The notes under the pieces are model-generated. The model was not told the origin of the DNA. It did not search any database and saw only the letters and a list, made by a program, of their open reading frames with translations. From assembly GCF_964355755.1 (NCBI RefSeq), contig NC_092680.1, positions 12,935,001 to 12,999,000 on the forward strand: a stretch of DNA of 64,000 nucleotides, read 5' to 3'. Positions 37,763-64,000 of this stretch are shown piece after piece (position 1 is the first letter of the stretch; the number at the start of each line of letters is the position of its first letter). A program made the translations under genes and the position numbers. This DNA is from Antedon mediterranea. Its lineage: Eukaryota > Echinodermata > Crinoidea > Comatulida > Antedonidae.

Positions 37763-38726
37763 TTATACGGCTTCAATTTCTTCACCATAACCCTCATCCG
37801 AACCCGTAGTATGAGATCCAAAAGGCGAAATATTATTTAAGGGTTTTGGAGAATTATTCGACGCAGGACGATTTTGTTTAAAGCTATCTAGTTGTCTTTT
37901 TAGTTTCTTCATTTCAAGATGTTTTCTGTCTACCTGCGCGTATACTGCATCGTTATCTGCAACTTCCGTGTTCTTGGCTACGTCTGCATCAGTACTGCTG
38001 AGTTTGTTGACAGGATCTTTTCTTGTTTCTGCAACTACGTCATCACCACTGCCGAGTTTGTTGTCATGATCTTTTCTTGCAGCTACGTCACCATTGAGCT
38101 CTTCCATAGATTGGTACAACCCATCCGCTGAAATGTTATCCCCGATCGCTATTTTCTTTAACTTTTCATTTACATCATCATCTTGACGCTCTTTTACGAT
38201 TTTCAGCTCGATGTCTTTTGGTTCCCCAACTCCCTTTTTCTTCTTCAGTTTGCTAGAGTTTTTCTGCTTAGACTTATCAGCAGATTTCTTCACCTTTGAG
38301 TTTTTCTTGGATCCTTTATTTTTCTTGTCTTTACTTGATTTCTGGTTAAATCCAATCTCTACGTCATTATCATTATCATGAAGCACCTCTATAGAAACCA
38401 TTCGATTGTTGCCTGCAGTCTCGTCTATGTCGTAGCCCCCAACAGCCCCTACATTCTCATCAGCATCTATAAACATCCCGTCATTACTATACCCACCGCT
38501 AACAGCGTTGATCATTTCAATTTCGTCTTTTTGTTCATGATATTTGAAATCATTAGATGTTGATGTGCCGTCTACTGCTGTGATCTCAATTACTCTGCCG
38601 CCATTTTCTCTATCCTTTCGTCTGTAACCATCCTGATCTGTACCAGGCATGCCAGAATCATGCGTGACGTAATCATTTGAATCCATATACATTGCACCCT
38701 GTGAGCTACTTCTACGCTTCTTATAT
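37763..38726 (-). CDS. Membrane gene exon 4: cytoplasmic tail
   Basis: Acceptor TCACAG at 38727-38732, stop TAA at 37763-37765. Encodes 321 codons including the stop, without a second hydrophobic segment. Confidence 0.88.
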
Positions 38727-41700
38727 CTGTGATAGAAAAACAATTGTTTTGTTTCAAAATTGAAGTAGGTTCTTTTATTCCCAGAGACTTTATTTATTTA
38801 ATATTATTGTTTGTATTAAAACAATTAATTATTATAAATTAATTGAATTGTTACTTCTCCAAATACTAATAATTGATATGTTGGAAAATATACCATGATA
38901 GTAAATAAAAATGTACTACTGTACTACAATACTATATTGCACTAATTTATCCTATCAAGAACTACTCAATTATAACATATAACACATAATATAAGATGTA
39001 CAATAGATAGACGTATAGAGTTAATCAAACTATTCCATTTTATATATTTTATTTTTCGTGCTTTTTTGTGTTTAGTAGTATGTCAAACATCAAATTTCCA
39101 TTTTTTATTTTTTTATGATATTGGAAAATACAAGTTTTTGAATTTTGAATTTTTTTAAAATTTTGAATCAACCTCCTTTGTATGGACCTGAAATTATCAG
39201 TGAATTTTGTGGTGTTAAGAAAAATAGGACACAAAGAATACGAATATTTATAGTTGAGAGGTTTTCAAATGAACACAATTTAGAAAAATTAACTTGGCAT
39301 AAAAATATGTGTTTATCTTCAAATGTTATCAATGAATACAGTATGTGATATGGCGGGAATTATGTGACAGAATATGATTTACCTTCTTATAATAATGGAG
39401 AAGAGAATAATAGAAACAATAACCAGGAAGACCATCAAAGCAACAGCGACAGAAAGAGAAACTACATCTGAAAAGAAGATATGGTTTGATAAAAAATCAT
39501 TGATAACATATATTGAACATTCTAATTGCTGATTGTTATCATCGAGGTTACATCCCCTTTCTCTTCTTCGTTCACACTAACCTACTTCACCCTGCACTAA
39601 CAACCGCCCCCTCCCCCCCCCCCCTCTACAAAACACACACACATCACTTTTTATCTTGTCGGTTGCAGTTTTTTTAGCTTCTTACCAAGTTCACATTTCG
39701 CCGCCTCCTTTCCTGGTGCAGGAGTTGGTGTACTACATTCTACTCTGTTGTAGCCCGTATTACATGTCACTTCACCCTTACTATTTCTTTCTCCGTGTTT
39801 GACTTCTTCTGGACAATCATCTGAAGTAGAAGGAAGAAAATGCAAGTTTTTGTAAACATAGTTGCATGTATCTATATATAAATTATGGTTAATTCTGACA
39901 TAGGCGAGCACAATGCAAAAACTTCGGTACAAATCTCCGCCTTGGATATACCTACCTTATCTATCTCAAAATGTACCGCGAAACGTAGATTTGATAACAT
40001 TAGTTTTCACATCGACGCTATTGTTCCATATTTCTATCTTAGGAAGATATTATAAAGGGTTTTATAAGAAATTTTCTGATTTCAATCGGTAAATTTTAAC
40101 TCTACGCGTGGTAGAAGTAATTTCCGGGTTCACGGAAGGTGTTGGTTTCAATCAGGGAGTTGTATACTAAGTTGGCCGTTGGTGCTTGGTGGCGATAGCC
40201 ATTTTGTTTTTTTGTTTATTTTCGGACCGCGCGTTTGAAAGTATAGTAGTACATAAAGATCACATTAAATACATTCATGAAACATAGGAGTAAATTGTGG
40301 GAAATAATTATATAAAATTACATTACATCAAGAGAATTGATGATAATAGCTTTTGTTTTGAAATCGAATGAAACCCCGATAGCCGAGTTGTTGAGTAAGC
40401 TGCCAGGACTTTATGTATACTTGCGCTATCTGTGTCCCGTCAGGACCCTGGGATACTTCTGCCTATGTTGCAAGCCGTCTAAACGTCTTCCTTCTTAGGC
40501 CACTGTGTCGCGGAATAATGTATTCATTATACCAATTAGGATGGTATTTATTTGAATAAACGCCCGGAACACCTCCCCAGTAAAACTTCAATTAAAATAA
40601 TTATCTCGCTACTCACCCCCCCCCCACCCCCAAATACATCTAATAAACGCCCATCCACATTTCTACACACAATATTGCATTATATTTATAACACAATTAT
40701 ACTATTTTTAGTAGATTTCTTCGGACTGTTATCTACAATTTACCAAGCATTTGATATTCTTTTTTACCACTTTTCATATCTACAATAAACACTATAGGCC
40801 TACGCCTAAAACGCTATTAATCATCTAAGACACTTAGGTTAGTGAGTACGTTTAGTTTTACGAATATCAAAAGCATTTAAATAATGGTAACCGACCGAAA
40901 TTGTCCAGGCCAGAATGTCCTTCTAAAACTTTTTACGTCCCGAGTCATTATCATTCCGGGAACCATCGTCTACACTTCCTAGAGGGGGAGCGAGCGAAGC
41001 GAGCTCACCCTCTAGTTATAATAATGACACCATCGTCATAATAATATGTATAAAGTAAACAATATCTGTAGGCCTACTGTATGGAAATAAAAGTGGGACG
41101 GACCCACCCACGTAAGACAAAAAAAGAAAACAATCTAATAAACCTATCATATATTTTGTTGATAGTTGTTTACAGAATCAAATGCATTTCTTTTGTTTTG
41201 TATTAGGCCTTATGAACAGTTTGTGTAAAATAAAAGTTGAATTGAATTGAGGCTTATACTGTATAATCAAATATAAATTCAAATGAAACGTTTTTCATAT
41301 TTTTTAATTACAGAAAAAAAGAGGCAAAAAAATGGTTAGTATATCAAAGCAGGGAAGAGTTAAATTTAACTCTTCCCTGATCAAAGTAATATGTTATTTT
41401 ATCAGGAAGTTACATTTAAACTAATCACTTTGTGACATTCTGACAGTGTAATAAAGGTGTGCCTTTAACAACAGAAATACTTCGCATGACCTAGTGACAA
41501 ATCAGCCGTAGACATACCATAACATATTCTTCTGTAGTGTTTTGTGTAAAAGGTTTTCAAATTCTATAACATCCATAAATAGCACAATGATAAAATAGGC
41601 ATATTGTTGGAACGAGTCATGATACAAACTTCAAAACACATGTCGAATAATAAAAGAGTATCAGTCGTTCGTCGAATAATAAAAGAGTATCAGTCGAGGA

Positions 41701-44700
41701 GAAAATTAATTTAAAAAAGAATACTGAAATCGTGAAACGTATAAAAGACCAATTTGTAACAAGCACGTGATACGTCATCAATATTCAAAAGTTTCAGCAC
41801 GTCGTCCTCGGTCTTAAAGTAGTATAGAACAACAAATTAAATTTTAAATAAACTTTTTTTATGTTGTTATGTTTGTATTGTAAAATCCGGAATAAATTGA
41901 ATTGAAATTTAATTATTTACAGTTACTAAAAAAAGGAATTATTCAACTAATTTGTCTGTTTGTTTGTTTGGCATGATGAACAAAAGGTAATATTTTATAA
42001 AGGATTTGACGTGCCTCTTTACGAATGTTGATAAAACAAGTATATTAACAATGTTAACAAATAAAATACATGAATGATAAAATCGCGTTAAAATAGGCAT
42101 AATGGATATAAAAATGAATATAAGAAATGGTAACTAATAGGTACCGAAGTAGGCTTACAGTGGCGTTTATTAGTTATGATCATATACAATTTTTTTTTTA
42201 AATATATGACTAAAAATAAGCCTTGAGTTGAACCGAAAACTGTGGAATTTGGTGGAGCAGGTGGAAATGAGATAAATTTCGATTTTATCAGCAGAACTCA
42301 AGCGAACATATTATAGATATTAACTGCGAAAACTTGAATTCGTCTTGTGGATAATAAATTCAGAGCAAATAAATTAATGTGTGATTCATGCATAATGTAA
42401 GTAGGTCAATATATAAAATTAATCAATCGCCATTGTAAAAACGACAAAGACTATGATTGACAAATAAGAACATAATACTGATGACAATACAACCAAAGAA
42501 AATGAATTTCTGGAGATACAATTGCAGTATCCTCAATCACCTAATTGACGATGTAGGCCTTATCCTATTCAAACCGTTTTTTTGGTTATATTTTTGTTTT
42601 TTATGTATGTTTTGACGTATTGTATTTTCTGTTGCCACTTTCAGCACAAGCTCTGCTTCTTGAAATGTGTGCCTCCTTCTTGTTGTATAGGCCTATTGTA
42701 AGAAATTGTATTTATGTTTGTTTAAGAATGAAGGAAATAAATGTTATTTTGATTTATTGATAGATTCAAAATTTTGATATTTTGTGTATGAATGATCACG
42801 TGAGGCATAACATCATATTAATTTCAATTTCTACATTAATATCCGAGGACTGAATATCAGATCATGAGACGACGACGGACGAATAGCAATAGATAGTATC
42901 AATAGACATATTATTTATAATTAGTATTATTATTTTATTCTGAAGATGTGGCCTTCAAGTTAAAACGTAGGCTTACAAAAGAGGAAACCAAACATTGATT
43001 CATGAGATTCATTAATTGTACATTATATTTAATATTAATAATAAGAATGAAGATTTCTAGAGCGCACTTCGCCACTAAAGGTGCTCAATTCTTTTGAATG
43101 CTTATAATATGCAATCACCTCAGATTAAATGCACAATAAAATTGCGAATTTAAAATGGAAAGAATTAGGCCTGTTAGGTCTTTTTTTTGTAATTTGTATA
43201 TTTTATTTTAAAATGTGTGGAGAAACTAATAAAACAAACTAACAAAGGCCTATGACCATGTCTAAGCCTGGCAAAAAAGATGAGTTTTTAATAATTTTTT
43301 AAACGAATCCAAGTTAGTATATTGGCAACAATATTTAATATTGTTTCATTATTCATATTATTACTATTAGAGATTCACTGCTTGCAATTTGATTGGTTTG
43401 TTCATAGAACTATTCAAATTTACAAATCCGTAGATTTCTAAACAGTTCGATATTGGAATAAGTTATTATTTCCTGGTCACTCAACAAAGGCTATTTTCCA
43501 ACACTTGAATTATGTTGTGGAACAAAAATAGTGAGTGTTGGTAGGCATAAAATGCAAATATGTATATATGCATATATTTTATGGCCTGTCATTTTTAATT
43601 GCTCTTTTTTATTTTATTTATTTCATGGATTACTTTTATTTTTATGTGAAGCGCATAGAGGCTTTATGCATTATGCGCTTAAAATAAAAGTCCAAATTTA
43701 ATATTTTGAAATAAAGAACACTAACCATAATATTGATAGGGGCCTTCTGTATTTCACTACTTTCAGAATTTAAATTTTTGTTGCCATTTTAGGCAATCAT
43801 AAGTTGGGCACGCAAGTAGGCCCTACAATTCTCTTTTTTTTTTTTCAATGGATGAATAATTAATATTAGGTTTGTTTTTCCCCAACATTACTGTGTATAC
43901 TGTCTATATTAATATACACAGTATGGAGTGTACAACGATCGCATGCAGAGAGTAGGCGGACAATGAAATAGGTGATTCTAAATTAATCCTCCAGATCCGA
44001 ATGGAATAATTAAAGCTTGGTTACTAGGGGACGAATAGATCAAATCATAAAGATAATATTATAGTGGGCCCTATATATATATAAACCCGAAGGCAATTTA
44101 GGCCTACTGAAAATAAAATAAAATTTATATACAGGTACTGTATATTAACTAATCACTTTTTGCGTGCACATCGTATGTCGTGGAAGAATACTTAAATCCA
44201 AATTTGTATCCGAGAAAATCCGAATCCGGGAATCTGTAAGTGGTCTAATTATTCAGGAAAAAATGTTTTAGATGTTTATTTTATAATATTATAGTTCATT
44301 GTCATCTATAAAGTATGGCCTGTCAATTGATTGATATTATTAATATTATTTTTTCCAAATCCATTCAACTATTATTATAAAGGCCCCTTTGGGGATGAAA
44401 CCATATTTTCCATCATACATCATATGAGAAATGAAACAGAACGTTCAAATTGAACGTTGAAATCTACGAGAGTGAAACAAGTTTACCGTATAAACCTGTT
44501 CATGGTTTTACCAATGCACAGCGCTTTAGTACCGGTTGGCCGTCATAGATCATGTACGATGAAATTCAATATATAAAATCTCCATTAAAAAAATACAAAT
44601 TTCAATACAATATAAATGTATTATCCTTACCGTTTGCAAATACTACCGCTACATTTAGTATGGAAATCATCAGAAACCCCCAGACTACTGGGTTTCGGGT

Positions 44701-44706
44701 GTTCAT
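37763..44706 (-). CDS. Unrecognised type I membrane protein with Cys-rich ectodomain and long tail, 419 aa
   Basis: Four exons in frame (1,260 bp): 44631-44706, 39686-39820, 39383-39467 and 37763-38726. Exon 1 is a signal peptide ending AVVFAN. Exon 2 is a 45-residue ectodomain with four Cys (DCPEE, GEVTCNTGY, RVECS, AAKCE); the V-T-C-N-x-G-Y part resembles a shortened sushi domain. Exon 3 gives one TM helix (residues about 72-97), followed by basic stop-transfer residues RRYKKRR. The tail (about 98-419) has an acidic region, a Lys/Ser-rich stretch, an imperfect repeat (VAARKD..NKL, VAETRKD..NKL), and tyrosines in YVTHDSG (Y118), YQSM (Y303, YxxM type) and VYAQV (Y361). I do not recognise the family. 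Exons 1 and 2 lie in the 7.7-kb tandem duplication and recur at 52366-52441 and 47421-47555. Function unknown; a surface receptor or adhesion role is inference. Confidence 0.8.
39383..39467 (-). CDS. Membrane gene exon 3: transmembrane segment
   Basis: 85 bp, acceptor TTTTCAG, donor GAAG/GTAAAT. Encodes VSLSVAVALMVFLVIVSIIL and FSIIIRR, an unbroken hydrophobic run of about 26 residues. Confidence 0.87.
39686..39820 (-). CDS. Membrane gene exon 2, proximal copy: Cys-rich ectodomain
   Basis: 135-bp symmetrical phase 1-1 exon, acceptor CTTCAG, donor CTTG/GTAAGA. Four cysteines and a Thr/Pro stalk (STPTPAPGKE). Confidence 0.83.
40979..41016. repeat. Short hairpin CTAGAGGG..CCCTCTAG
   Basis: Inverted repeat with a GCGAGCGAAGCGAGC centre, within intron 1 of the membrane gene; duplicated about 7.7 kb to the right. 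Confidence 0.6.
41350..41379. repeat. Perfect 30-bp palindrome
   Basis: CAGGGAAGAGTTAAA and its exact reverse complement, no spacer. A second copy is at 49087-49116 in duplication unit 2. Unknown role; it may be a MITE remnant. Confidence 0.9.
44631..44706 (-). CDS. Membrane gene exon 1, proximal copy: signal peptide
   Basis: ATG at 44706. Encodes MNTRNPVVWGFLMISILN and VAVVFAN, then donor AACG/GTAAGG in phase 1, matching the acceptor phase of the ectodomain exon. Strong signal-peptide profile. The plus-strand ORF across the same bases is its shadow. Confidence 0.75.
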
Positions 44707-46269
44707 AATTAAATACGTTGATCGTACATTCACATGAAGGAAATTGGTCTTACATGGGCTGGAGTCGTAGAGCATTAGACAACGGACGATGTTTACCGCT
44801 TTCTCATTGGATTTGCATATGAATTAATCATTCTTTTTTAGCCTGGCCGCCGTTCAAAAGGCACAAAAAGAATAGTGTTTGCTTAACTGGTGAGACGAAA
44901 CGATTGTCTAATGACGCGGTTGACTGACGCATTACGGTCTAATTCTATACCCATTGCTCAGTTCAAGCTTTGGGTAATAAGCCCAATAGGCTTATATAAA
45001 ATATAAAACTAGAGTAGGGGATCCGTGGGCGTCACCACCAAGACGGGTTGAAATTACAATTAATATCGAAATGGGACCTTTAGCATTTACAATCCCAATG
45101 TTAAGGGAAAAACAGGCTGGAGGAGCCATAGGGAATCAGTCCCTTTTAGGTTTCCTGTCAACTACTTTGTGGTATCCATCTGTTAGATGGTATTCCGAAA
45201 TTAATTGTACAGTGGCCTTCTTTTGTTTAAGTTATTGATAAATTATACTTGAACATATTGTTCTTCTTAAGATATTTATTTTAAATTGGATTTAAACGTA
45301 ATTACATATTAAAAGGATGGGGACCTAAGAAAGCGATGGGATTACAATAATAATGTTAAGTATACTGTACCTATTTTTACTATATTACTTTGGTAGTATA
45401 ACCTAACAATGTTAAGTATTTAGGCCTACTTGTTTTTAATTATTAATTTGGTAGTATAACCTGTGCTTAAAAGTTGGATAAAAGAATCATTTCAGATATG
45501 AATTAGACTACCAAAAACCACAGCGCAAAGTGACATTCATTGTATTGTAGTCTATGTAGGTCAAAATACTGTACCAGTGTTTAAATTGTTTTTGTAATTG
45601 AAATGAAAGTTTGGTCTGTTGCACTGAGGGCGATCGTCATGCTCTGCAAAAGTACGAATGCTGTAACCAAAAATTGAGGGCAGTATAATGTACTCTTTTT
45701 TGGGAAAGGGGAGGAGCTATCTTATTCTGGTTATTTAAAAATTCAAAAAGTAGGTAGAGACTAAACGTATACCATTTTCAATAAAATTGTTATTAAATTC
45801 AAAAGTGTAAAACAAATAAAATATTGTGTTTATTAAACATTTACCATTGAGGGAATAATTTTGTGGTAATAATAATTGTGGTCTTTAAGGGTATACAGAT
45901 ATCCTTATTTATAAAGGATTTCTATGGTAAAGTAGATGTTTTAAAGAACCTTTTTTGTTCAATTTAACATTTAAAAAAAAACCTCAATTATGCCTATTAG
46001 AAACTCCTTAATCATTTTGTATGCACGGGTGGGATAATAATATTAATATAATTTTCTACCAATCAGAAGTATTTTTAAAACACGAATTGTAATTTGGCGC
46101 CAATAAATGCTACTGACATTACTGGAATTATGCAATGATAAAAAAATTTAAAATAACGTCTGCTGTATTCAATGGGGTGTAACTATTTCCTTGTAGAGAT
46201 CATTTGTTAATATGTACTGTTTACTGTTAACTGATCGTTATCAAAGCAACACGTAGGCATAAAGTAAGG
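44707..46269. promoter_or_regulatory. Divergent intergenic region between membrane-gene and WSC/sushi first exons, unit 1
   Basis: 1.56 kb separates two oppositely directed signal-peptide exons, so both promoters should lie here. An octamer-like ATTTGCAT is at about 44811 and the sequence is AT-rich. No clear TATA is assigned. The same region recurs at 52442-54004. Confidence 0.45.
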
Positions 46270-46330
46270 ATGGCGATATCTTATATCAAGTCTTTGATTC
46301 TAGTTTTACTTTTTACTGCTCAAAGTATTG
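46270..46330 (+). CDS. WSC/sushi gene exon 1, proximal copy: signal peptide
   Basis: ATG in context AAGGATGG. Encodes 20 residues with a strong hydrophobic core (LILVLLFTAQ) and ends AAAGTATTG/GTAAGT in phase 1. It lies 1.56 kb from, and divergent to, the membrane-gene exon 1 at 44706. Confidence 0.75.
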
Positions 46331-49300
46331 GTAAGTGTAAAACTGATTATCTACTACAGTAATAATTGTTATACTATTATAGTCAGTAAATGTCATTTAT
46401 TTATTTGTCTCATGCAGAAATACTTCTCCATGTTTTACTTTTGAAAACAAACAAAAAGAGAATTGATCAGACAACTAAAAGTAAACAGGATTACTAAAAC
46501 TTAGAGTCAGTAGTCCTATGATTGGTTTATGATAACATAATTAATAATTAGGCACATAAACTATAAACTATTATATACCAAATGTATACAATAAAAAACA
46601 AAGCAAAAAAAAAAACGATTTATAGATTATTACCAAGAAGGGAAGAATCAATCTATATGATAAAAGAAGATTAGGGAAAGATTCAGTATGTCCGTAATTG
46701 ATGTAACTGAGATCATAGCTTTTATCAATAAGTTCCATAGCATTGTCATTGGTTAATTGAAAACCAATACAAACAGCGAAAACAGTTTGGCTTAAAAAAC
46801 TGAACTTATTTGAGCAGTAGAAAAAGTTTACGGTATCTTTTGCATTAAAGAATAGGAAAATGAGATGTAAATACTGGAGCATGGGTCTTTAAAGTTCAGG
46901 TCAAGCAAGATAGATGGTTAGGTATTTTCTGGAAGATTATACTTTTGTTAACGGAGTAACTTCTAGTTATTTTTCTTTTTCTTTTTCTTACGATCTAAGT
47001 ACTGACAGGCCTTGTCATAGTTACCGATGACGTAAACGCAATGACGTATATGTACAGCCAATCACAGGCGAATGTTTGGATAATCAATCACTTGTAATTG
47101 GTCAAATTACTTGTGTTGCGTTTGCACCACGTCATGTAACAACCAAACTTAGCATATCTACACGTAAATAAATACATGCATTTAATTAAGCATGGGATAA
47201 TAAAGATACATTCTAGAAATGAAATGTTTATTTCAATAATTTGACTTGTAAAACACAAAATCAGTAAATACCTTATCATCGAGGTTACATCCCCTTTCTC
47301 TTCTTCGTTCACACTAACCTACTTCACCCTGCACTAACAACCGCCCCCTCCCCCCCCCCTCTACAAAACACACACACATCACTTTTTATCTTGTCGGTTG
47401 CAGTTTTTTTAGCTTCTTACCAAGTTCACATTTCGCCGCCTCCTTTCCTGGTGCAGGAGTTGGTGTACTACATTCTACTCTGTTGTAGCCCGTATTACAT
47501 GTCACTTCACCCTTACTATTTCTTTCTCCGTGTTTGACTTCTTCTGGACAATCATCTGAAGTAGAAGGAAGAAAATGCAAGTTTTTGTAAACATAGTTGC
47601 ATGTATCTATATATAAATTATGGTTAATTCTGACATAGGCGAGCACAATGCAAAAACTTCGGTACAAATCTCCGCCTTGGATATACCTACCTTATCTATC
47701 TCAAAATGTACCGCGAAACGTAGATTTGATAACATTAGTTTTCACATCGACGCTATTGTTCCATATTTCTATCTTAGGAAGATATTATAAAGGGTTTTAT
47801 AAGAAATATTCTGATTTCAATCGGTAAATTTTAACTCTACGCGTGGTAGAAGTAATTTCCGGGTTCACGGAAGGTGTTGGTTTCAATCAGGGAGTTGTAT
47901 ACTAAGTTGGCCGTTGGTGCTTGGTGGCGATAGCCATTTTGTTTTTTTGTTTATTTTCGGACCGCGCGTTTGAAAGTATAGTAGTACATAAAGATCACAT
48001 TAAATACATTCATGAAACATAGGAGTAAATTGTGGGAAATAATTATATAAAATTACATTACATCAAGAGAATTGATGATAATAGCTTTTGTTTTGAAATC
48101 GAATGAAACCCCGATAGCCGAGTTGTTGAGTAAGCTGCCAGGACTTTATGTATACTTGCGCTATCTGTGTCCCGTCAGGACCCTGGGATACTTCTGCCTA
48201 TGTTGCAAGCCGTCTAAACGTCTTCCTTCTTAGGCCACTGTGTCGCGGAATAATGTATTCATTATACCAATTAGGATGGTATTTATTTGAATAAACGCCC
48301 GGAACACCTCCCCAGTAAAACTTCAATTAAAATAATTATCTCGCTACTCACCCCCCCCCCACCCCCAAATACATCTAATAAACGCCCATCCACATTTCTA
48401 CACACAATATTGCATTATATTTATAACACAATTATACTATTTTTAGTAGATTTCTTCGGACTGTTATCTACAATTTACCAAGCATTTGATATTCTTTTTT
48501 ACCACTTTTCATATCTACAATAAACACTATAGGCCTACGCCTAAAACGCTATTAATCATCTAAGACACTTAGGTTAGTGAGTACGTTTAGTTTTACGAAT
48601 ATCAAAAGCATTTAAATAATGGTAACCGACCGAAATTGTCCAGGCCAGAATGTCCTTCTAAAACTTTTTACGTCCCGAGTCATTATCATTCCGGGAACCA
48701 TCGTCTACACTTCCTAGAGGGGGAGCGAGCGAAGCGAGCTCACCCTCTAGTTATAATAATGACACCATCGTCATAATAATATGTATAAAGTAAACAATAT
48801 CTGTAGGCCTACTGTATGGAAATAAAAGTGGGACGGACCCACCCACGTAAGACAAAAAAAGAAAACAATCTAATAAACCTATCATATATTTTGTTGATAG
48901 TTGTTTACAGAATCAAATGCATTTCTTTTGTTTTGTATTAGGCCTTATGAACAGTTTGTGTAAAATAAAAGTTGAATTGAATTGAGGCTTATACTGTATA
49001 ATCAAATATAAATTCAAATGAAACGTTTTTCATATTTTTTAATTACAGAAAAAAAGAGGCAAAAAAATGGTTAGTATATCAAAGCAGGGAAGAGTTAAAT
49101 TTAACTCTTCCCTGATCAAAGTAATATGTTATTTTATCAGGAAGTTACATTTAAACTAATCACTTTGTGACATTCTGACAGTGTAATAAAGGTGTGCCTT
49201 TAACAACAGAAATACTTCGCATGACCTAGTGACAAATCAGCCGTAGACATACCATAACATATTCTTCTGTAGTGTTTTGTGTAAAAGGTTTTCAAATTCT

Positions 49301-52300
49301 ATAACATCCATAAATAGCACAATGATAAAATAGGCATATTGTTGGAACGAGTCATGATACAAACTTCAAAACACATGTCGAATAATAAAAGAGTATCAGT
49401 CGTTCGTCGAATAATAAAAGAGTATCAGTCGAGGAGAAAATTAATTTAAAAAAGAATACTGAAATCGTGAAACGTATAAAAGACCAATTTGTAACAAGCA
49501 CGTGATACGTCATCAATATTCAAAAGTTTCAGCACGTCGTCCTCGGTCTTAAAGTAGTATAGAACAACAAATTAAATTTTAAATAAACTTTTTTTATGTT
49601 GTTATGTTTGTATTGTAAAATCCGGAATAAATTGAATTGAAATTTAATTATTTACAGTTACTAAAAAAAGGAATTATTCAACTAATTTGTCTGTTTGTTT
49701 GTTTGGCATGATGAACAAAAGGTAATATTTTATAAAGGATTTGACGTGCCTCTTTACGAATGTTGATAAAACAAGTATATTAACAATGTTAACAAATAAA
49801 ATACATGAATGATAAAATCGCGTTAAAATAGGCATAATGGATATAAAAATGAATATAAGAAATGGTAACTAATAGGTACCGAAGTAGGCTTACAGTGGCG
49901 TTTATTAGTTATGATCATATACAATTTTTTTTTTAAATATATGACTAAAAATAAGCCTTGAGTTGAACCGAAAACTGTGGAATTTGGTGGAGCAGGTGGA
50001 AATGAGATAAATTTCGATTTTATCAGCAGAACTCAAGCGAACATATTATAGATATTAACTGCGAAAACTTGAATTCGTCTTGTGGATAATAAATTCAGAG
50101 CAAATAAATTAATGTGTGATTCATGCATAATGTAAGTAGGTCAATATATAAAATTAATCAATCGCCATTGTAAAAACGACAAAGACTATGATTGACAAAT
50201 AAGAACATAATACTGATGACAATACAACCAAAGAAAATGAATTTCTGGAGATACAATTGCAGTATCCTCAATCACCTAATTGACGATGTAGGCCTTATCC
50301 TATTCAAACCGTTTTTTTGGTTATATTTTTGTTTTTTATGTATGTTTTGACGTATTGTATTTTCTGTTGCCACTTTCAGCACAAGCTCTGCTTCTTGAAA
50401 TGTGTGCCTCCTTCTTGTTGTATAGGCCTATTGTAAGAAATTGTATTTATGTTTGTTTAAGAATGAAGGAAATAAATGTTATTTTGATTTATTGATAGAT
50501 TCAAAATTTTGATATTTTGTGTATGAATGATCACGTGAGGCATAACATCATATTAATTTCAATTTCTACATTAATATCCGAGGACTGAATATCAGATCAT
50601 GAGACGACGACGGACGAATAGCAATAGATAGTATCAATAGACATATTATTTATAATTAGTATTATTATTTTATTCTGAAGATGTGGCCTTCAAGTTAAAA
50701 CGTAGGCTTACAAAAGAGGAAACCAAACATTGATTCATGAGATTCATTAATTGTACATTATATTTAATATTAATAATAAGAATGAAGATTTCTAGAGCGC
50801 ACTTCGCCACTAAAGGTGCTCAATTCTTTTGAATGCTTATAATATGCAATCACCTCAGATTAAATGCACAATAAAATTGCGAATTTAAAATGGAAAGAAT
50901 TAGGCCTGTTAGGTCTTTTTTTTGTAATTTGTATATTTTATTTTAAAATGTGTGGAGAAACTAATAAAACAAACTAACAAAGGCCTATGACCATGTCTAA
51001 GCCTGGCAAAAAAGATGAGTTTTTAATAATTTTTTAAACGAATCCAAGTTAGTATATTGGCAACAATATTTAATATTGTTTCATTATTCATATTATTACT
51101 ATTAGAGATTCACTGCTTGCAATTTGATTGGTTTGTTCATAGAACTATTCAAATTTACAAATCCGTAGATTTCTAAACAGTTCGATATTGGAATAAGTTA
51201 TTATTTCCTGGTCACTCAACAAAGGCTATTTTCCAACACTTGAATTATGTTGTGGAACAAAAATAGTGAGTGTTGGTAGGCATAAAATGCAAATATGTAT
51301 ATATGCATATATTTTATGGCCTGTCATTTTTAATTGCTCTTTTTTATTTTATTTATTTCATGGATTACTTTTATTTTTATGTGAAGCGCATAGAGGCTTT
51401 ATGCATTATGCGCTTAAAATAAAAGTCCAAATTTAATATTTTGAAATAAAGAACACTAACCATAATATTGATAGGGGCCTTCTGTATTTCACTACTTTCA
51501 GAATTTAAATTTTTGTTGCCATTTTAGGCAATCATAAGTTGGGCACGCAAGTAGGCCCTACAATTCTCTTTTTTTTTTTTCAATGGATGAATAATTAATA
51601 TTAGGTTTGTTTTTCCCCAACATTACTGTGTATACTGTCTATATTAATATACACAGTATGGAGTGTACAACGATCGCATGCAGAGAGTAGGCGGACAATG
51701 AAATAGGTGATTCTAAATTAATCCTCCAGATCCGAATGGAATAATTAAAGCTTGGTTACTAGGGGACGAATAGATCAAATCATAAAGATAATATTATAGT
51801 GGGCCCTATATATATATAAACCCGAAGGCAATTTAGGCCTACTGAAAATAAAATAAAATTTATATACAGGTACTGTATATTAACTAATCACTTTTTGCGT
51901 GCACATCGTATGTCGTGGAAGAATACTTAAATCCAAATTTGTATCCGAGAAAATCCGAATCCGGGAATCTGTAAGTGGTCTAATTATTCAGGAAAAAATG
52001 TTTTAGATGTTTATTTTATAATATTATAGTTCATTGTCATCTATAAAGTATGGCCTGTCAATTGATTGATATTATTAATATTATTTTTTCCAAATCCATT
52101 CAACTATTATTATAAAGGCCCCTTTGGGGATGAAACCATATTTTCCATCATACATCATATGAGAAATGAAACAGAACGTTCAAATTGAACGTTGAAATCT
52201 ACGAGAGTGAAACAAGTTTACCGTATAAACCTGTTCATGGTTTTACCAATGCACAGCGCTTTAGTACCGGTTGGCCGTCATAGATCATGTACGATGAAAT

Positions 52301-55300
52301 TCAATATATAAAATCTCCATTAAAAAAATACAAATTTCAATACAATATAAATGTATTATCCTTACCGTTTGCAAATACTACCGCTACATTTAGTATGGAA
52401 ATCATCAGAAACCCCCAGACTACTGGGTTTCGGGTGTTCATAATTAAATACGTTGATCGTACATTCACATGAAGGAAATTGGTCTTACATGGGCTGGAGT
52501 CGTAGAGCATTAGACAACGGACGATGTTTACCGCTTTCTCATTGGATTTGCATATGAATTAATCATTCTTTTTTAGCCTGGCCGCCGTTCAAAAGGCACA
52601 AAAAGAATAGTGTTTGCTTAACTGGTGAGACGAAACGATTGTCTAATGACGCGGTTGACTGACGCATTACGGTCTAATTCTATACCCATTGCTCAGTTCA
52701 AGCTTTGGGTAATAAGCCCAATAGGCTTATATAAAATATAAAACTAGAGTAGGGGATCCGTGGGCGTCACCACCAAGACGGGTTGAAATTACAATTAATA
52801 TCGAAATGGGACCTTTAGCATTTACAATCCCAATGTTAAGGGAAAAACAGGCTGGAGGAGCCATAGGGAATCAGTCCCTTTTAGGTTTCCTGTCAACTAC
52901 TTTGTGGTATCCATCTGTTAGATGGTATTCCGAAATTAATTGTACAGTGGCCTTCTTTTGTTTAAGTTATTGATAAATTATACTTGAACATATTGTTCTT
53001 CTTAAGATATTTATTTTAAATTGGATTTAAACGTAATTACATATTAAAAGGATGGGGACCTAAGAAAGCGATGGGATTACAATAATAATGTTAAGTATAC
53101 TGTACCTATTTTTACTATATTACTTTGGTAGTATAACCTAACAATGTTAAGTATTTAGGCCTACTTGTTTTTAATTATTAATTTGGTAGTATAACCTGTG
53201 CTTAAAAGTTGGATAAAAGAATCATTTCAGATATGAATTAGACTACCAAAAACCACAGCGCAAAGTGACATTCATTGTATTGTAGTCTATGTAGGTCAAA
53301 ATACTGTACCAGTGTTTAAATTGTTTTTGTAATTGAAATGAAAGTTTGGTCTGTTGCACTGAGGGCGATCGTCATGCTCTGCAAAAGTACGAATGCTGTA
53401 ACCAAAAATTGAGGGCAGTATAATGTACTCTTTTTTGGGAAAGGGGAGGAGCTATCTTATTCTGGTTATTTAAAAATTCAAAAAGTAGGTAGAGACTAAA
53501 CGTATACCATTTTCAATAAAATTGTTATTAAATTCAAAAGTGTAAAACAAATAAAATATTGTGTTTATTAAACATTTACCATTGAGGGAATAATTTTGTG
53601 GTAATAATAATTGTGGTCTTTAAGGGTATACAGATATCCTTATTTATAAAGGATTTCTATGGTAAAGTAGATGTTTTAAAGAACCTTTTTTGTTCAATTT
53701 AACATTTAAAAAAAAACCTCAATTATGCCTATTAGAAACTCCTTAATCATTTTGTATGCACGGGTGGGATAATAATATTAATATAATTTTCTACCAATCA
53801 GAAGTATTTTTAAAACACGAATTGTAATTTGGCGCCAATAAATGCTACTGACATTACTGGAATTATGCAATGATAAAAAAATTTAAAATAACGTCTGCTG
53901 TATTCAATGGGGTGTAACTATTTCCTTGTAGAGATCATTTGTTAATATGTACTGTTTACTGTTAACTGATCGTTATCAAAGCAACACGTAGGCATAAAGT
54001 AAGGATGGCGATATCTTATATCAAGTCTTTGATTCTAGTTTTACTTTTTACTGCTCAAAGTATTGGTAAGTGTAAAACTGATTATCTACTACAGTAATAA
54101 TTGTTATACTATTATAGTCAGTAAATGTCATTTATTTATTTGTCTCATGCAGAAATACTTCTCCATGTTTTACTTTTGAAAACAAACAAAAAGAGAATTG
54201 ATCAGACAACTAAAAGTAAACAGGATTACTAAAACTTAGAGTCAGTAGTCCTATGATTGGTTTATGATAACATAATTAATAATTAGGCACATAAACTATA
54301 AACTATTATATACCAAATGTATACAATAAAAAACAAAGCAAAAAAAAAAACGATTTATAGATTATTACCAAGAAGGGAAGAATCAATCTATATGATAAAA
54401 GAAGATTAGGGAAAGATTCAGTATGTCCGTAATTGATGTAACTGAGATCATAGCTTTTATCAATAAGTTCCATAGCATTGTCATTGGTTAATTGAAAACC
54501 AATACAAACAGCGAAAACAGTTTGGCTTAAAAAACTGAACTTATTTGAGCAGTAGAAAAAGTTTACGGTATCTTTTGCATTAAAGAATAGGAAAATGAGA
54601 TGTAAATACTGGAGCATGGGTCTTTAAAGTTCAGGTCAAGCAAGATAGATGGTTAGGTATTTTCTGGAAGATTATACTTTTGTTAACGGAGTAACTTCTA
54701 GTTATTTTTCTTTTTCTTTTTCTTACGATCTAAGTACTGACAGGCCTTGTCATAGTTACCGATGACGTAAACGCAATGACGTATATGTACAGCCAATCAC
54801 AGGCGAATGTTTGGATAATCAATCACTTGTAATTGGTCAAATTACTTGTGTTGCGTTTGCACCACGTCATGTAACAACCAAACTTAGCATATCTACACGT
54901 AAATAAATACATGCATTTAATTAAGCATGGGATAATAAAGATACATTCTAGAAATGAAATGTTTATTTCAATAATTTGACTTGTAAAACACAAAATCAGT
55001 AAATACCTTAACCAAACTTGGTTGATCTTAAACTGACGTTATAAAAGAAGTTCGAGATAAATCTATTGAAAAATCATCTTCACTCCATAATACATTAAAA
55101 ATGTAAAATAGATAGCTTTAACATTTTTTTTTCAAACCCCATAACTATTTTGCTGGTAGAATAATCGAACGCTATTCAAATTCGTATTTTAGAATATTTT
55201 GTCGGGAGTTTAGATTTAGTTTATTGTTTCATAAATATATAAAGAGAACATATTTAAATACCGTGAGATAAAGTTACCCACATAAAATTCTACTGAGTTG

Positions 55301-58300
55301 GGAGAAAACACTAAGGTAACTTGACTGAAAGTGTTACTACACCGGTATAGGCTTATATAAACATAAAGTAGAAACATTATTGATTTTTTCTTCAAAAAAA
55401 TTGTACCACAAAAGTTCAAAAATAAAATTGTGTTTTCACACAATTCTTGCTTATCTTTAATATCCTTACGGGCAAAAACGGTTAGGAATATTACATTTTT
55501 TTAATTAAATTACAGAGGGAAAAAAAATCTGCAGTCAAATATGTGTACAGCCACATCAAAACCAGGCACTTGGTGAAATATATATTTTTTTAGTTGATAC
55601 TATAATGGTATTCCTCACAATATATCCTTCAAAATGGTGTTTGGATCATTTAAATCAAGCAAATATTCCCAGAGTTATGGCAATAAATGTATATAGCATT
55701 TATACAACAATTTATTTGTAATTACTGAGTAATTAACAGTCAAAGTTTAATGACAAATCAGACAGGAAGTTGCCCCATGCTGTTACAGATTGAACAATTA
55801 ACACCTTAGCAACACTACCTTCTAGATAAACAATCATTCTGAAATTTGGCACACTTATTCAATATAGTGTTTTCTGATATTCATGAAAATTTCATCAAAA
55901 TCCGAGGTGGTTATCATAGTTAATTATGACGATTACAAAGTACCACTAATTTACGTAAAATCTGTCAAATTCATTTATAATACTGTAGTGTAAGAATAAT
56001 ACAGTAGGCCTACTAGTAGGTATTCAGGAAGATTGCCTGAGCTTATTATTAGTTCTAAACAAATTTTTAAAAAACAGCAAACATTTTATTAATGAACTTT
56101 ATTAAATTTTATTTCTCTTTTTACTTTATTTTATCTGCTTTTTGTTCAAAATGGCGCAGGGCACATAATGTCCTTCGTTTCTGGTCGGCAAAATTCAATT
56201 ACCAGTATTTTATTTGTGAGTGATTTGTATTGTACTGGTTTTTAGTGTTAATGTTATGTATGTAAGAGAAACTCAACAGTTCTTTTCAGACTTAATATAC
56301 GTGGTGTACCGCAAACTTTATATCAACATTTGATTTCGCCATGCAAACCTTCAAACAATGTTATGTATTCTATTGTTGAACCAGCACCATAACAGATAGC
56401 CACACCCGTTAGCTTGAACAATGTTTTTAAGCATGATGAATAACGTGAAATTTAGCCAAGGTACCAGTATTTTATTTGTGAGGGATTTGTATTGTACTGG
56501 ATTTTACTGTTGTTAATGTTATGTAATACGTCTATTGTTGAACCAGCACCTGGCCTGATCATGACAGATAGACACACCTGTTAGCTTGAACAATGTTTTT
56601 AAGCATGATGAATAACGTGAAATTTAGCCAAGGTACCAGTATTTTATTTGTGAGGGATTTGTATTGTACTGGTTTTTACGGTTTATGTTTTGCACACACT
56701 CCCCACACACCCAACCCATCATTGGCAATTTTTAAGCATAGGCCTAATGAAATTTAACCAAATTGAAATAAATAAAATAGCCCAGCAGTAGGCCTAGTAA
56801 GTAGGCCTACTAAAGTAAAGCCTTCCAGGAAGCTTATTATACTATAGAGAGGAAAACTCTATCTTATTTTAATTGGGCTAGGCCTTGTTGTTGTTATTAC
56901 TATTATTATTACTAGCTAGCTAGGCCTACTATGCCATGCAGCCTATCTAGGCTAGTAGCCCAGCGTAGTAGTAGGCCTAGGCGGATCTCCGCCTAGTCTA
57001 GGCTTATAGTACTAGGCCTAGTAGAGCCAGGTCTAGCCTACTGTACCTCCTAGCTAGCTAGGCCTAGTGCCAGTGGATTGAGAGTTACATTGCTAATATC
57101 AACTCTTACGATAAATAACTTAGCTAGGCCCTTTACTTTAGTATGTTATAACTTATTGTTATCAAGTCTGAGTCAGTACACGTCACTTTAGTATTACTGT
57201 GTACAGTACTTAGATGAACTATAAAAAATATATTTTTCTCGACAAGCGTGTACTAGCGATAAGATTTTGTTGACCTGGAATTTTCCATGCTGGATGGGTC
57301 ATGTGACAAAATTAAACCAATCACATCGCTTCTTTCAGCGTGTTCGTAGCAACAAGGCCGTTTTTGTTTACACTAAAGGGTTCTATAAAATCGGTTTTTA
57401 TTGGTCTATATCGTACAATCTGTGACATCACTCATTTATTTTTAGATTCATGAACAAAATACCTATCGAATGATACCAAGCTTTCAGGGGTTATCTACAA
57501 AATTACGGCGTAGGAATGACGAAAATAACTGCTTTTTTATAACGAATTACCACGTTCTTTCAATCGAAACACGAGGATAGAGGCTCAGATTTATGTAATT
57601 TTTACCACCTTTCCATTTGAATTAGTTAATAAGATATATATTTTTGAAATCTACGGTAAATTTCCTATCAGATAATGGTAAAAAAACAAAATGGTCAAAA
57701 TATGAGTTTCACACATTCAAATGCATTTTACACAAATCCCTATCTAGCGACAAGCGCCTGGTTTTGATGTGGCTGTACACATATTATGAAATCTGTTTAA
57801 GGGCTACATATGAATGTATATAGCAGCTTGCTTTGATTGGCAGCAGGCATTTGAACACGGCGACTGACTTGAGGAAGAACTTCAAATTCACTATTCAACC
57901 TTTTCTAAAACTTGTCTGATAAGCAATGGGGCTTCGGGTCAAACCTTTTCTTAAAACAATGTTGTGAGGACGTTATAATAGTGTACGATTTTTTCTGACT
58001 AAAAAAGCGCAAACTGTAATTTGCGAAGTTTATAATTATTATCACATGTTTACTCGAGTGCAATACAACTGGGTATGTTCTTGAAGGTAATCCGACAAGA
58101 CATTGTCACTCGGACAAGACTTGGTCCGGACAAGTTCCATTATGCGTTGGTAAGTATAGGGTTGTTAAAATTAGGAGAAACATAAGAGATCTGAACTACA
58201 CTAATTTAAATATACAGTGGTATCACATTTGTTAGGTCACAGGTCACCGAGAGATACAAAGTTTATTATTATCATGTGTTGAAGGCTGAGAGAATTGTAA

Positions 58301-61300: not shown

Positions 61301-64000
61301 CACCGGCCACGCTAACAACATACATGGTCAAATGCATAATTTAATATTCTATAGATTAACGCAATTTTTAATGACAGAAGATGGCAGCCAAATAATGATA
61401 ATTCAAATTTAAAAATTTAATTGCATATTTTATTAATATTACCAACTACTTAAAATTACCAGTCGTAAGAAAGTGAACTTTTCGTAGTCCGATTGTGATG
61501 AAACTAAAACAGAATTATTCTGCAATATATTTTTGTTGTCAATTAATCATCGACGCAGACATGTCAATAGAACATTCAGACTGCGCATACGATTTCTACA
61601 TGGTTATTAACATGGTACATTATATTAACGCTTACAAAAATTAATATTCAGGGTCAATTTTATTGATATTTCTGTATATCATAATTTGAATATTATTGAT
61701 TAATCGTTCTTCGGCTGACAAATCAAATATGTAAGCAGTATTGCCAATATTAATTAAATAGACCTACTAGAGTAATCGGACATTCAGCATATTAAATTTT
61801 CCGACATGAACGCGAACGTCATTTTGACAAATTGATCTGTGTGCATGCGTAAACGACAAAAACACAATCGAAAACCTTATTTACATAAAATAGATCACAC
61901 CAAAAAGTTAACCGAAGGGTATCGAAACATGAAGAATTCAATACATTTTGAGAAGAATAATAACCAGATAATCATCTCAGGTCTTAACAGCAGTGTAATC
62001 TTCATTTTATTATATGACATGCTATTTCAGGACTTGAATTTGTTCCTGAAATAATGGTATTCGATGGTTGTGAATGCTCATATTTAGGCTAATTTAATTA
62101 TTTATCTGAATAATTGTCACAAATGTGAAATATATCACAAATTCTCCTTCCTGCAGTACTGCATAAAATAGGGAACATTGGGTGTGAGACTACTCAGGAA
62201 CTATAAACTATGTTATGTTCAAATTTATCAAGCACATATAGGGAAATTTGGATGCGTTTCTGCACTTGATCCCTCGACACATTTTTGGACTTTCTGGTGA
62301 CAAACAACGTAACCCTATGCGTAGGCCTATGAACTAACTCAACAACCGAACTTTTTTTTCAGAATTTGAAAATCTTGGATGCTTTTATGATTACGCAGAA
62401 TCGCGTACACTGCCAGGACTCACCTCATGCGATGTACCAGAACCGGAGGAGCTATGTAATAACTGTACGAGGACACATAATTATTGTGAAAACCGTCAAC
62501 TAATGACGGTGGACTTATGTCTTGATCTGTGTCTCAGACGAGGTTTTCTCTACTCTGGGTTGGAAGCAAGACAACAGTGCTTCTGTGGACATTATTTCAA
62601 CTCAACACATCCACCAAACGGCAAACCGAAATCTCAGGATGAATGTAACGGACCTTGTAGAGGTAACCCTAGTCAATTCTGTGGAGCAGAACTCAGAATG
62701 ATGATTTACAGGAGTAAGTTTTATGTCACTACAGACATAAATAGTTTCAATCTATCAATATATCTATTCAATTCAAAATTAAACGAGCCTTACCTGTAAG
62801 GTGAAGTTTGATGACAATTCTATCAGCATTGGCACTTTTGGGTTAACATGCCCTCCTTTATAGAACTGTACCTGCCTTTAATTTAAACTGCGGATCGTGC
62901 ACACACAGATTTGAAATCTGATTTGAGCGGACACTGGTCGTGCCAAGCTTTACTTGTACATTTTTAGTCGCGTGCAAACGCGACTCTACTGCTCACTATG
63001 TCGGTCGGTTGGTCGGTCGGTAAACATTAACTCAAATTTGCGCACGCGACTGGGCCAGCCAGGTGTATGGCCTTGTTTTTATATAAGGCATTTCACTTTT
63101 GTGAAGTGTCAACGTACGTAATTGGTTAAAGTAAAACAGTATGAATTAGTAATTGGTCACTTGAGTAAATGTGTTATTACTTTCAATACGTTATTATGCA
63201 TGTCTTATTATTTCAGACGGTCAATTTACGAATTGTTCTGGTGGAATCTACCTAATGAATGGTGTTGTGAGACCAAGTCAACTAATGTATGCACCAGCAA
63301 CAACCATTACATTTTCTTGTAATCCAGGATTCTACCAAGCTGGGCCTACGGACTCATACTGTTGGTATTCTGGCGTGTTTAGCCACGTCAGAAAACAAAC
63401 GCAACCAAGTTGTACAAGACAATGTGAAGATATACAAACAAACATACATAACATTACGTTACTTAGTCCAAGTAGATATCCTGATGCTTATGTTTTCGGA
63501 GACTCGTTACTATACACATGTACAGAAGGCTATGAACCAACACAAGATGATGATTCAATTTGGCAGATAGAATGTACAGCAGACGGTACTTGGTCTACGG
63601 AATTTCAGTCATGCTCTGGTAATTAATTAAATCAAACTTGTTTGTATATATTAAGAGTTACGCAAAAAAATATAGTTAACAAAGAACATTTTTATCGGTG
63701 CGCAATAGTTACTATAGGCTACAATGTATGACTGAATTGAAATTGAAATATTTTATTCATACCAACATGTATTCATCTTACAACAAAAACATTAATTTCA
63801 TTTCTGATGATGACATAATTAGCTTCGAAATGATGTAATCCTGACAAACTGGTGCGTTTTTCATGTACTCTTTTATACTGGAGTTAATTATACTGGATCT
63901 TCTGGTTGCTATACAGTATATGAAAACTTTATTTTAATTACACAGGTGTATCATGCGGTTACCCTACAGTACCAGCTAATGGAATTCTCCTGGGAACTAA
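46270..64000 (+). CDS. WSC plus sushi (CCP) domain protein, 5' part, continues past right edge
   Basis: Exons 46270-46330 (and its duplicate 54005-54065), 62363-62713, 63217-63618 and 63946 onward join in phase 1 throughout, giving 289 codons before the edge. Order: signal peptide (MAISYIKSLILVLLFTAQS); a WSC carbohydrate-binding-type domain (NLGCFYDY, then VDLCLDLCLRRGFLYSGLEA and QQCFCG, the classical CxxxC...GFxYxGLExxxxCFCG pattern); sushi 1 (NCSGG to QPSC, with TFSCNPGFY); sushi 2 (QCEDI to FQSC, with YTCTEGYEP and DGTW); and the start of sushi 3 (VSCGYPTVPANG). Secreted or surface-exposed. WSC with CCP arrays occurs in invertebrate lectin-like and adhesion proteins; the exact orthologue is not recognised. 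Intron 1 is 8.3 kb from the distal first exon or 16 kb from the proximal one. Confidence 0.85.
46985..47140. repeat. Diverged relative of the TTGGTTCCC MITE interior
   Basis: Shares the order CAATCAC..ATTGGTCAA..ACTTG(T/C)GTTGCG with 19381-19521. A duplicate lies at 54720-54875. Ends are decayed. Confidence 0.4.
47421..47555 (-). CDS. Membrane gene exon 2, distal duplicate: Cys-rich ectodomain
   Basis: Same sequence and splice sites as 39686-39820, shifted 7,735 bp. Because it is phase 1-1, a transcript from the distal promoter could include it in front of the proximal ectodomain exon without a frameshift. Confidence 0.7.
52366..52441 (-). CDS. Membrane gene exon 1, distal duplicate: signal peptide
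   Basis: Identical copy of 44631-44706 in the second duplication unit, with the same ATG and donor. It would be the first exon of the longest possible transcript. Confidence 0.65.
52442..54004. promoter_or_regulatory. Divergent intergenic region, unit 2 copy
   Basis: Duplicate of 44707-46269 with no difference noticed; supplies a second potential promoter pair. Confidence 0.4.
54005..54065 (+). CDS. WSC/sushi gene exon 1, distal copy: signal peptide
   Basis: Identical to 46270-46330. As the copy nearer exon 2 it is the more likely first exon, though both can splice to 62363 in phase. Confidence 0.75.
55011..55534. other. Unique sequence after the duplication, WSC/sushi intron
   Basis: AT-rich, no exon recognised. 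Confidence 0.4.
55535..57792. mobile_element. 2.26-kb DNA element with about 30-bp TIRs
   Basis: TIRs AATATGTGTACAGCCACATC continuing to AAAACCAGGC, and complement at the right end. Contains the tandem repeats at 56196-56690. No transposase ORF found; superfamily undetermined. Confidence 0.7.
56196..56690. repeat. Diverged tandem repeats of about 175 bp
   Basis: ACCAGTATTTTATTTGTGAG and ATTTGTATTGTACTGG occur three times. The GTTGAACCAGCAC to AATTTAGCCAAGGT block occurs twice. Confidence 0.87.
57793..59335. other. WSC/sushi intron, nothing recognised
   Basis: AT-rich intronic sequence. Short ORFs on both strands show no domain. A local duplicate of CAACTTTTTACTT..CTACTGGACTTCCATT occurs at 58908 and 59047. 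Confidence 0.4.
59344..59514. mobile_element. hAT-like MITE with perfect 8-bp TSD
   Basis: 171 bp starting CAGTGGCGTAA and ending CACGCCACTG, flanked by AGTATAAT at 59336-59343 and 59515-59522. 8-bp TSD and CAGTGGCG ends are hAT hallmarks. Relative at 7706-7877. Confidence 0.9.
59918..60976. mobile_element. Outer DNA element split by a nested insertion
   Basis: TGAGGCC(T)AAAAAAAA and GTTTGTTTGCTGTCA at the left are repeated inverted at 60940-60976. Removing the inner element leaves about 275 bp. Confidence 0.65.
60000..60782. mobile_element. Nested DNA element with CCGTATATTTCGGTGTATAA ends
   Basis: TIRs (C/G)CGTATATTTCGGTGTATAA with TA on each outer side; GTGTATAAGACGCACC is repeated subterminally on both sides. 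It holds a 120-codon ORF (60189-60551, plus) with no recognised domain. Superfamily not settled; the TA target would suit a Tc1/mariner or pogo relative. Confidence 0.7.
60977..62362. other. WSC/sushi intron 1, 3' end
   Basis: No coding exon recognised. Around 61105-61200 three CCAAT/ATTGG boxes cluster (AGCCAATCCC, GTGATTGGAT, AGCCAATCACC), two of them forming an inverted repeat. Confidence 0.4.
62363..62713 (+). CDS. WSC/sushi gene exon 2: WSC domain
   Basis: Acceptor T8CAG, donor GGA/GTAAGT. 351 bp, symmetrical phase 1. Cys-rich, includes CRGNPSQFCGAELRM, typical of the WSC C-terminal end. Confidence 0.92.
62966..63055. repeat. GC-rich inverted-repeat element in WSC/sushi intron 2
   Basis: Perfect palindromic arms AGTCGCGT/ACGCGACT (62966-62985), a TCGG/TTGG tandem run, and a further GCGCACGCGACT at 63041-63052. 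Confidence 0.6.
63217..63618 (+). CDS. WSC/sushi gene exon 3: two sushi domains
   Basis: Acceptor ATTTCAG, donor TCTG/GTAATT. 402 bp, phase 1-1. Two CCP modules in one exon, each with the Cys-x-x-Gly-(Tyr/Phe) core; Trp in the second (DGTWS). Confidence 0.9.
63946..64000 (+). CDS. WSC/sushi gene exon 4 (partial): start of third sushi domain
   Basis: Acceptor CACAG then VSCGYPTVPANGILLGT, a typical CCP start (C-x-x-P-x-x-x-x-N-G). Cut by the window edge. Confidence 0.85.
   Translation, partial: MYHAVTLQYQLMEFSWEL

Follow-up and report, generated by a model that had tools for sequence, protein, structure and literature searches.

Introduction

In Drosophila yakuba, population data yielded 1,116 tandem duplications in the sample studied; in the part of that work cited here, changes in expression were ascribed to the shuffling of regulatory elements and to chimeric structures and not to copies of whole genes (PMC5460883). 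Another described class consists of false duplications made during assembly, and the part of Ko et al. 2022 on which we draw names as their signs reduced depth, one-copy k-mers, discordant linked reads and, for copies on the same scaffold, a gap between them (PMC9516828). The subject of this paper is a 7.7-kb tandem duplication in the crinoid Antedon mediterranea, found in a stretch of 64,000 nucleotides (C11:12935001-12999000, forward strand), called the window below. The genome assembly comprises ~354.4 Mb in 18 contigs, namely eleven large chromosomes of ~353.5 Mb and seven small contigs; searching it for the COX1 family gave no hit. In our opinion, the locus probably represents a real and very young head-to-tail duplication, joined without extended homology (no more than 3 bp) and spanning the presumed shared promoter and the 5' exons of two divergent genes.

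Structure and Age of the Duplication

Self-alignment of the window gave one outstanding long direct repeat, in which 39536-47275 and 47273-55010 are 99.961% identical over 7,740 columns. The two units have the same orientation and are contiguous, with no spacer between them, as in a tandem segmental duplication. The following elements define the duplication:

39536-47272 (7,737 bp): duplication unit, left copy, with the ancestral T at 40073
47273-55007 (7,735 bp): duplication unit, right copy, with the derived A at 47808
39613-39624, plus strand: C12 tract within the unit, 77 bases from the left breakpoint; its counterpart in the right copy is C10 at 47350-47359
47273-47275: TTA, a 3-bp microhomology found at both outer edges and where the units meet

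Only two differences were found between the units, the substitution T40073/A47808 and the length of the C-run (12/10), and both lie within the first 540 bp of the unit. The chance that both would fall so near one end, with either end counted, is ~1% (computed post hoc). TTA stands directly after each edge (39535/39536, 47272/47273 and 55007/55008), and the joint is therefore ambiguous by 3 bp. The sequence-only reading, which had proposed near-identical 7.7-kb tandem units differing by one substitution and a C-run length and sharing TTA at the breakpoints, was right on all these points, and its coordinates were confirmed to the base. A perfect 30-bp palindrome is also present within each unit, at 41350-41379 and 49085-49114.

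The duplicated sequence belongs, in the parts searched, to a single locus, unlike that of a dispersed mobile element. Full-length matches of a 2,801-bp piece (43800-46600) occur at two places in the genome, both in this locus, and there are four further short matches. The first 2 kb of the unit are dispersed only at ~331-1490 of the unit; the searches covered these 2 kb and 43800-46600. The dispersed part is a passenger inside an intron of the minus-strand gene described below:

39866-41025 (~1.16 kb; right copy ~47601-48760): dispersed repeat inside intron 1 of the minus-strand gene, not at a breakpoint

It begins ~330 bp inside the left edge of the unit. The matches of these first 2 kb number at least 63; four of them fall within the two units, and several more are pieces of a single place.

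As a control of frequency, self-matches of at least 300 bp were collected in two 50-kb stretches of C3 and C8 (100 kb); no near-identical duplication of kilobase scale was found there, the self-matches being short-spaced arrays and repeats with no more than 95.9% identity, and this small sample says little about the rate of near-identical duplications in the whole genome. Over 144 kb surrounding the window, three pairs resembling long terminal repeats (LTRs) are the only others above 500 bp in length with at least 99% identity.

The dispersed repeat makes it possible to polarise the substitution. In 16 of its copies, chosen from the matches of the unit's first 2 kb, the base at the substituted site is T in 15 and A in one, the latter copy being 79% identical over the stretch. 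It follows that the right unit carries the derived base, A47808. One substitution in 7,735 bp corresponds to an age of ~32,000 to 6,500 generations at assumed rates of 2e-9 to 1e-8 per generation, with 95% limits of ~160 to 180,000 generations. A very recent event, one of the possibilities named earlier, is well supported by one substitution in 7.7 kb polarised to the right copy, and the duplication is probably still polymorphic.

Genes Affected by the Duplication

The unit contains the presumed divergent promoter region, exons 1-2 of a gene on the minus strand and exon 1 of a gene on the plus strand. The exon models of both genes are predictions throughout. For the minus-strand gene they are as follows:

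44631-44706, minus strand: exon 1, left copy; signal peptide, phase-1 donor
39686-39820, minus strand: exon 2, left copy; 45-amino-acid cysteine-containing ectodomain module, phase 1-1
39383-39467, minus strand: exon 3; transmembrane segment, acceptor edge 68 bp to the left of the left breakpoint
37763-38726, minus strand: exon 4; cytoplasmic tail and stop codon
52366-52441, minus strand: exon 1, right copy, identical to the left copy
47421-47555, minus strand: exon 2, right copy, identical to the left copy

The predicted product of 419 amino acids consists of a signal peptide, a short cysteine-containing ectodomain, a transmembrane segment and a tail, and its three introns are all of the GT-AG type. 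When the genome was searched, exons 3 and 4 were found once each and exons 1 and 2 twice each. A Pfam scan of the translations of exons 2 and 4, the two exons scanned, gave 0 families with E up to 1. A paralogue located 1.19 Mb away, at C11:14.163 Mb (L009), has counterparts of exons 1-3 with order, GT-AG sites and phases conserved; after its exon 2 stands GTGGTAAGC, and the donor may sit 3 bp further on. The tail of this paralogue has no recognisable relation to that of the minus-strand gene.

Exon 2 (39686-39820) and its counterpart (L009:5625-5762) are ~94% identical in DNA, with no silent codon changes seen in the alignment; exons 1 and 3 are 79% and 85% identical, and the introns gave no blastn match. 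The high identity of exon 2 points either to strong constraint or to gene conversion of exon size. A third relative of this gene was noticed at C11:13013150-13046386 (L002-L005), with an exon 1 region at 78150-78510 (here and below, positions above 64000 are window coordinates extended to the right). The same region contains matches to the tail of the L009 paralogue at 110270-111386, with LTR-like pairs in between, and it is only putatively one gene.

The elements of the plus-strand gene are:

46270-46330, plus strand: exon 1, left copy; signal peptide, donor GTAAGTG, phase 1
54005-54065, plus strand: exon 1, right copy, identical to the left copy
62363-62713, plus strand: exon 2, phase 1-1; WSC domain match at 62473-62688
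63217-63618, plus strand: sushi exon with two sushi stretches, phase 1-1
63946-64122, plus strand: further sushi exon, running past the window end
from 64432, plus strand: transmembrane exon, beyond the window end

The order of this gene is signal peptide, WSC domain, sushi repeats and transmembrane segment, with phase 1 and GT-AG at the joints up to the transmembrane exon. Its five joined exons, the last of them incomplete, give an open frame over 363 codons, and exon 1 is in phase with the WSC exon. The domain scan identified WSC with E 5.2e-13 and sushi with E 2.1e-13; the transmembrane segment was recognised by eye as a hydrophobic stretch of the exon that starts at 64432. The two surface proteins postulated in the sequence-only reading, a membrane protein on the minus strand and a WSC/sushi protein on the plus strand, each with its first exons in both units, agree with these predicted exons: exons 1-3 of the former are backed by the paralogue and its copies are identical, and the latter has the WSC, sushi and transmembrane parts.

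Another candidate for exon 2 of the plus-strand gene, a sushi half-domain at ~58.05 kb (sushi E 5.7e-6), was rejected as a copy of part of the third sushi exon. Positions 58055-58264 are 82.9% identical to 64028-64248 over 222 columns, which take in part of that exon and what follows it, and upstream of the half-domain a motif scan gave no convincing candidate for an N-terminal half. As for the WSC exon at 62363, its phase-1 acceptor matches, which supports it as exon 2. The stretch 58055-58264 is a decayed copy, left by an older small duplication inside intron 1 of the plus-strand gene. One more WSC domain match is situated on the minus strand at C11:13062890-13063138 (L007), 65 kb to the right of the WSC exon.

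Placed back to back and 1,563 bp apart, the two start codons enclose the presumed promoter region:

44707-46269 (1,563 bp; right copy 52442-54004): presumed promoter region between the divergent start codons

The left breakpoint falls in intron 2 of the minus-strand gene, 68 bp before exon 3, and the right one in intron 1 of the plus-strand gene. Since both genes point outward from the duplicated block, each of them keeps a complete series of exons. According to these models, neither gene is broken: the left unit and the left flank serve the minus-strand gene, and the right unit and the right flank serve the plus-strand gene.

Origin of the Duplication and Rival Explanations

Between the regions of ±500 bp around the breakpoints, no homology beyond chance was detected (best E 0.12, on the opposite strand), and this makes unequal crossing-over between repeats unlikely. 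The joint would rather have arisen by end-joining or template-switching with the use of no more than 3 bp of homology. Microhomology-mediated joining had been suggested earlier; TTA at the joint and the lack of extended homology agree with it, but 3 bp or more are shared at 6.9% of 20,000 random joints in the window, so TTA counts for little as evidence of this route, and the mechanism is not singled out. Recombination of repeats at the edges was considered as well and rejected, as the breakpoints have no homology beyond chance and the palindrome at 41350-41379 lies inside the unit, off the edges. Non-allelic homologous recombination between dispersed repeats can be regarded as very improbable: a dispersed element does occur in the unit, ~330 bp from the left edge, but it reaches neither edge, and the breakpoint regions show no similarity beyond chance.

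The C12 tract could have stalled a replication fork, and it could equally have hurt the assembly. In the ~236 kb read, where the duplicated unit was included a single time, there are six C/G runs of at least 8, and the chance that either breakpoint would be within 78 bp of such a run is ~0.8%. The association was noticed post hoc, and the tract is no more than a lead as a cause of the left breakpoint.

A false duplication, in which an assembler wrote a single real copy, or a pair of almost identical alleles, twice, is the most serious rival, although we consider it rather unlikely. A doubled sequence with consensus errors would show just what is seen here, a difference in homopolymer length and one substitution, and the C12 tract sits close to the left edge; false duplications are stated to persist in newer assemblies, some of them arising from sequence errors (homotype), in the part of Ko et al. 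2022 that deals with them (PMC9516828). The same source, as far as it is drawn on here, counts a gap between copies on the same scaffold among the primary signs (PMC9516828), whereas no assembly gap separates these copies, the window containing 0 N, a count in which gaps closed before release would not show. An allelic (heterotype) duplication would demand heterozygosity of ~0.1% or less: the probability of at most one substitution in 7,735 bp is 0.4% at heterozygosity 0.1% and 3e-6 at 0.2%. In addition, at the T/A site one unit holds the base common to 15 of the 16 repeat copies. Several points weigh against a real duplication of the kind we favour. At heterozygosity 0.05% the allele explanation has a probability of 10%; long-read coverage can fail at sequences such as the C-tract, which is 77 bases from the left breakpoint; the two differences are both at one end of the unit; and exon 1 of the plus-strand gene is backed by its signal peptide, its donor and a phase in agreement with that of the WSC exon, and by no paralogue. 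On balance, the indirect signs, namely the lack of a gap and an identity that two alleles would show at such low heterozygosity only, argue against an assembly error. If the duplication were nevertheless false, it would mean that this assembly can double kilobases without a gap and that the exon counts in this gene cluster are inflated.

A further rival is an older tandem duplication whose two copies were homogenised by gene conversion or by repeated unequal exchange between them. This explanation, conversion having also been named in the sequence-only reading, seems quite improbable. The position of both differences in the first 540 bp fits the edge of a conversion tract, and other repeated gene pieces are present nearby. 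However, two differences are too few for a pattern, and both copies are identical right up to their edges, although conversion tends to leave divergence there. A young event accounts for these data in fewer steps, and conversion of an older duplication is not needed. A real duplication, by whatever route it was formed, may be put at a little over three in four, and the very young head-to-tail duplication joined without extended homology remains the probable form of it.

Predicted Consequences for Gene Expression and Protein Structure

The surplus 5' ends, namely exon 1 of the plus-strand gene in the left copy and exons 1-2 of the minus-strand gene in the right copy, converge across the unit junction. 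They have donors and no new 3' parts, and the obvious acceptors are therefore those of their own genes. Each surplus end could be spliced to its own gene and would thus provide it with a second, more distant promoter. For the plus-strand gene, this would be an extra promoter with a first intron of 16.0 kb, compared with 8.3 kb from the right unit, with no change to the protein. In the minus-strand gene, transcripts from the outer promoter would give either the same protein or a form of 464 amino acids with two ectodomain modules. Such a form would stay in frame because exon 2 has phase 1-1, and the joined frame with exon 2 taken twice is open over 464 amino acids. The second promoters and the two-module isoform could exist as predicted from the splice phase.

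Taken further, these predictions would describe a newborn receptor locus with two promoters, where the outer promoter of the minus-strand gene drives a two-module receptor and the inner one a one-module receptor, so that a single structural mutation within the last thousands of generations would have given rise at once to a new form of the protein and to an additional promoter for each gene, with neither of them broken. We regard this picture as speculative and put it forward with considerable doubt. If the duplication is real, the locus would offer a clean natural case, still before divergence, in which a divergent promoter region was copied together with the 5' exons of two genes, neither of which was broken, and the phase-symmetric exon 2 gives a concrete and testable prediction of a new isoform.

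Other Repeats around the Locus

Three direct pairs in the neighbouring stretches (L002-L006) are probably young LTR insertions. The pair at 78636/95596 (533 bp, 99.06% identity) begins with TG and lacks a clear CA end and target duplication. Nested in it, the pair at 80896/89769 (700 bp, 99.14%) has TG...CA ends and perhaps a target duplication of 5 bp. The pair at 114298/121328 (619 bp, 99.84%) also begins with TG, and a clear CA end and target duplication are lacking.

Tandem arrays of different types are present too. They include a minisatellite at 9352-10236 of the window (44 copies of a 20-bp unit, 98% matches), a satellite array at 101032-105750 (L004 to L005) with a period of ~157 bp and ~30 copies that are ~95-97% alike, and an array at 132889-134000 (L007), of at least that extent, with a period of ~29-30 bp and long open frames in which a short peptide is repeated.

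Comparison with Known Systems

Within the same genome, a close likeness is the C5 WSC region, which is also a direct duplication of a region with a WSC domain. Its direct copies (L010, C5:11848001-11858000, and L011, C5:11893001-11903000) have a 45-kb spacing and are 97.84% identical over 8,560 columns. As this identity is lower than the 99.96% found here, the C5 duplication is the older one.

With the false duplications of Ko et al. 2022, as characterised in the part of that paper used here (PMC9516828), the locus shares adjacent near-identical copies and the duplication of parts of genes. It differs from them in having no gap between the copies and a divergence below that of two alleles, unless heterozygosity is very low.

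Another close likeness is to tandem duplications that capture the 5' parts of genes and have, in the cases described in the cited part of the Drosophila yakuba work, the potential to alter expression and gene structure and not dosage. Those cases concern chimeric genes and recruited non-coding sequence, whereas at this locus the genes point outward, their surplus 5' fragments are face to face without forming a same-strand chimera, and the evidence comes from sequence alone. Since the tandem duplications of Drosophila yakuba, in so far as that source describes them, are comparable (PMC5460883), it may be concluded that the locus is of a known kind and an ordinary class, of which the outward-facing gene pair and the in-frame exon make a neat instance.

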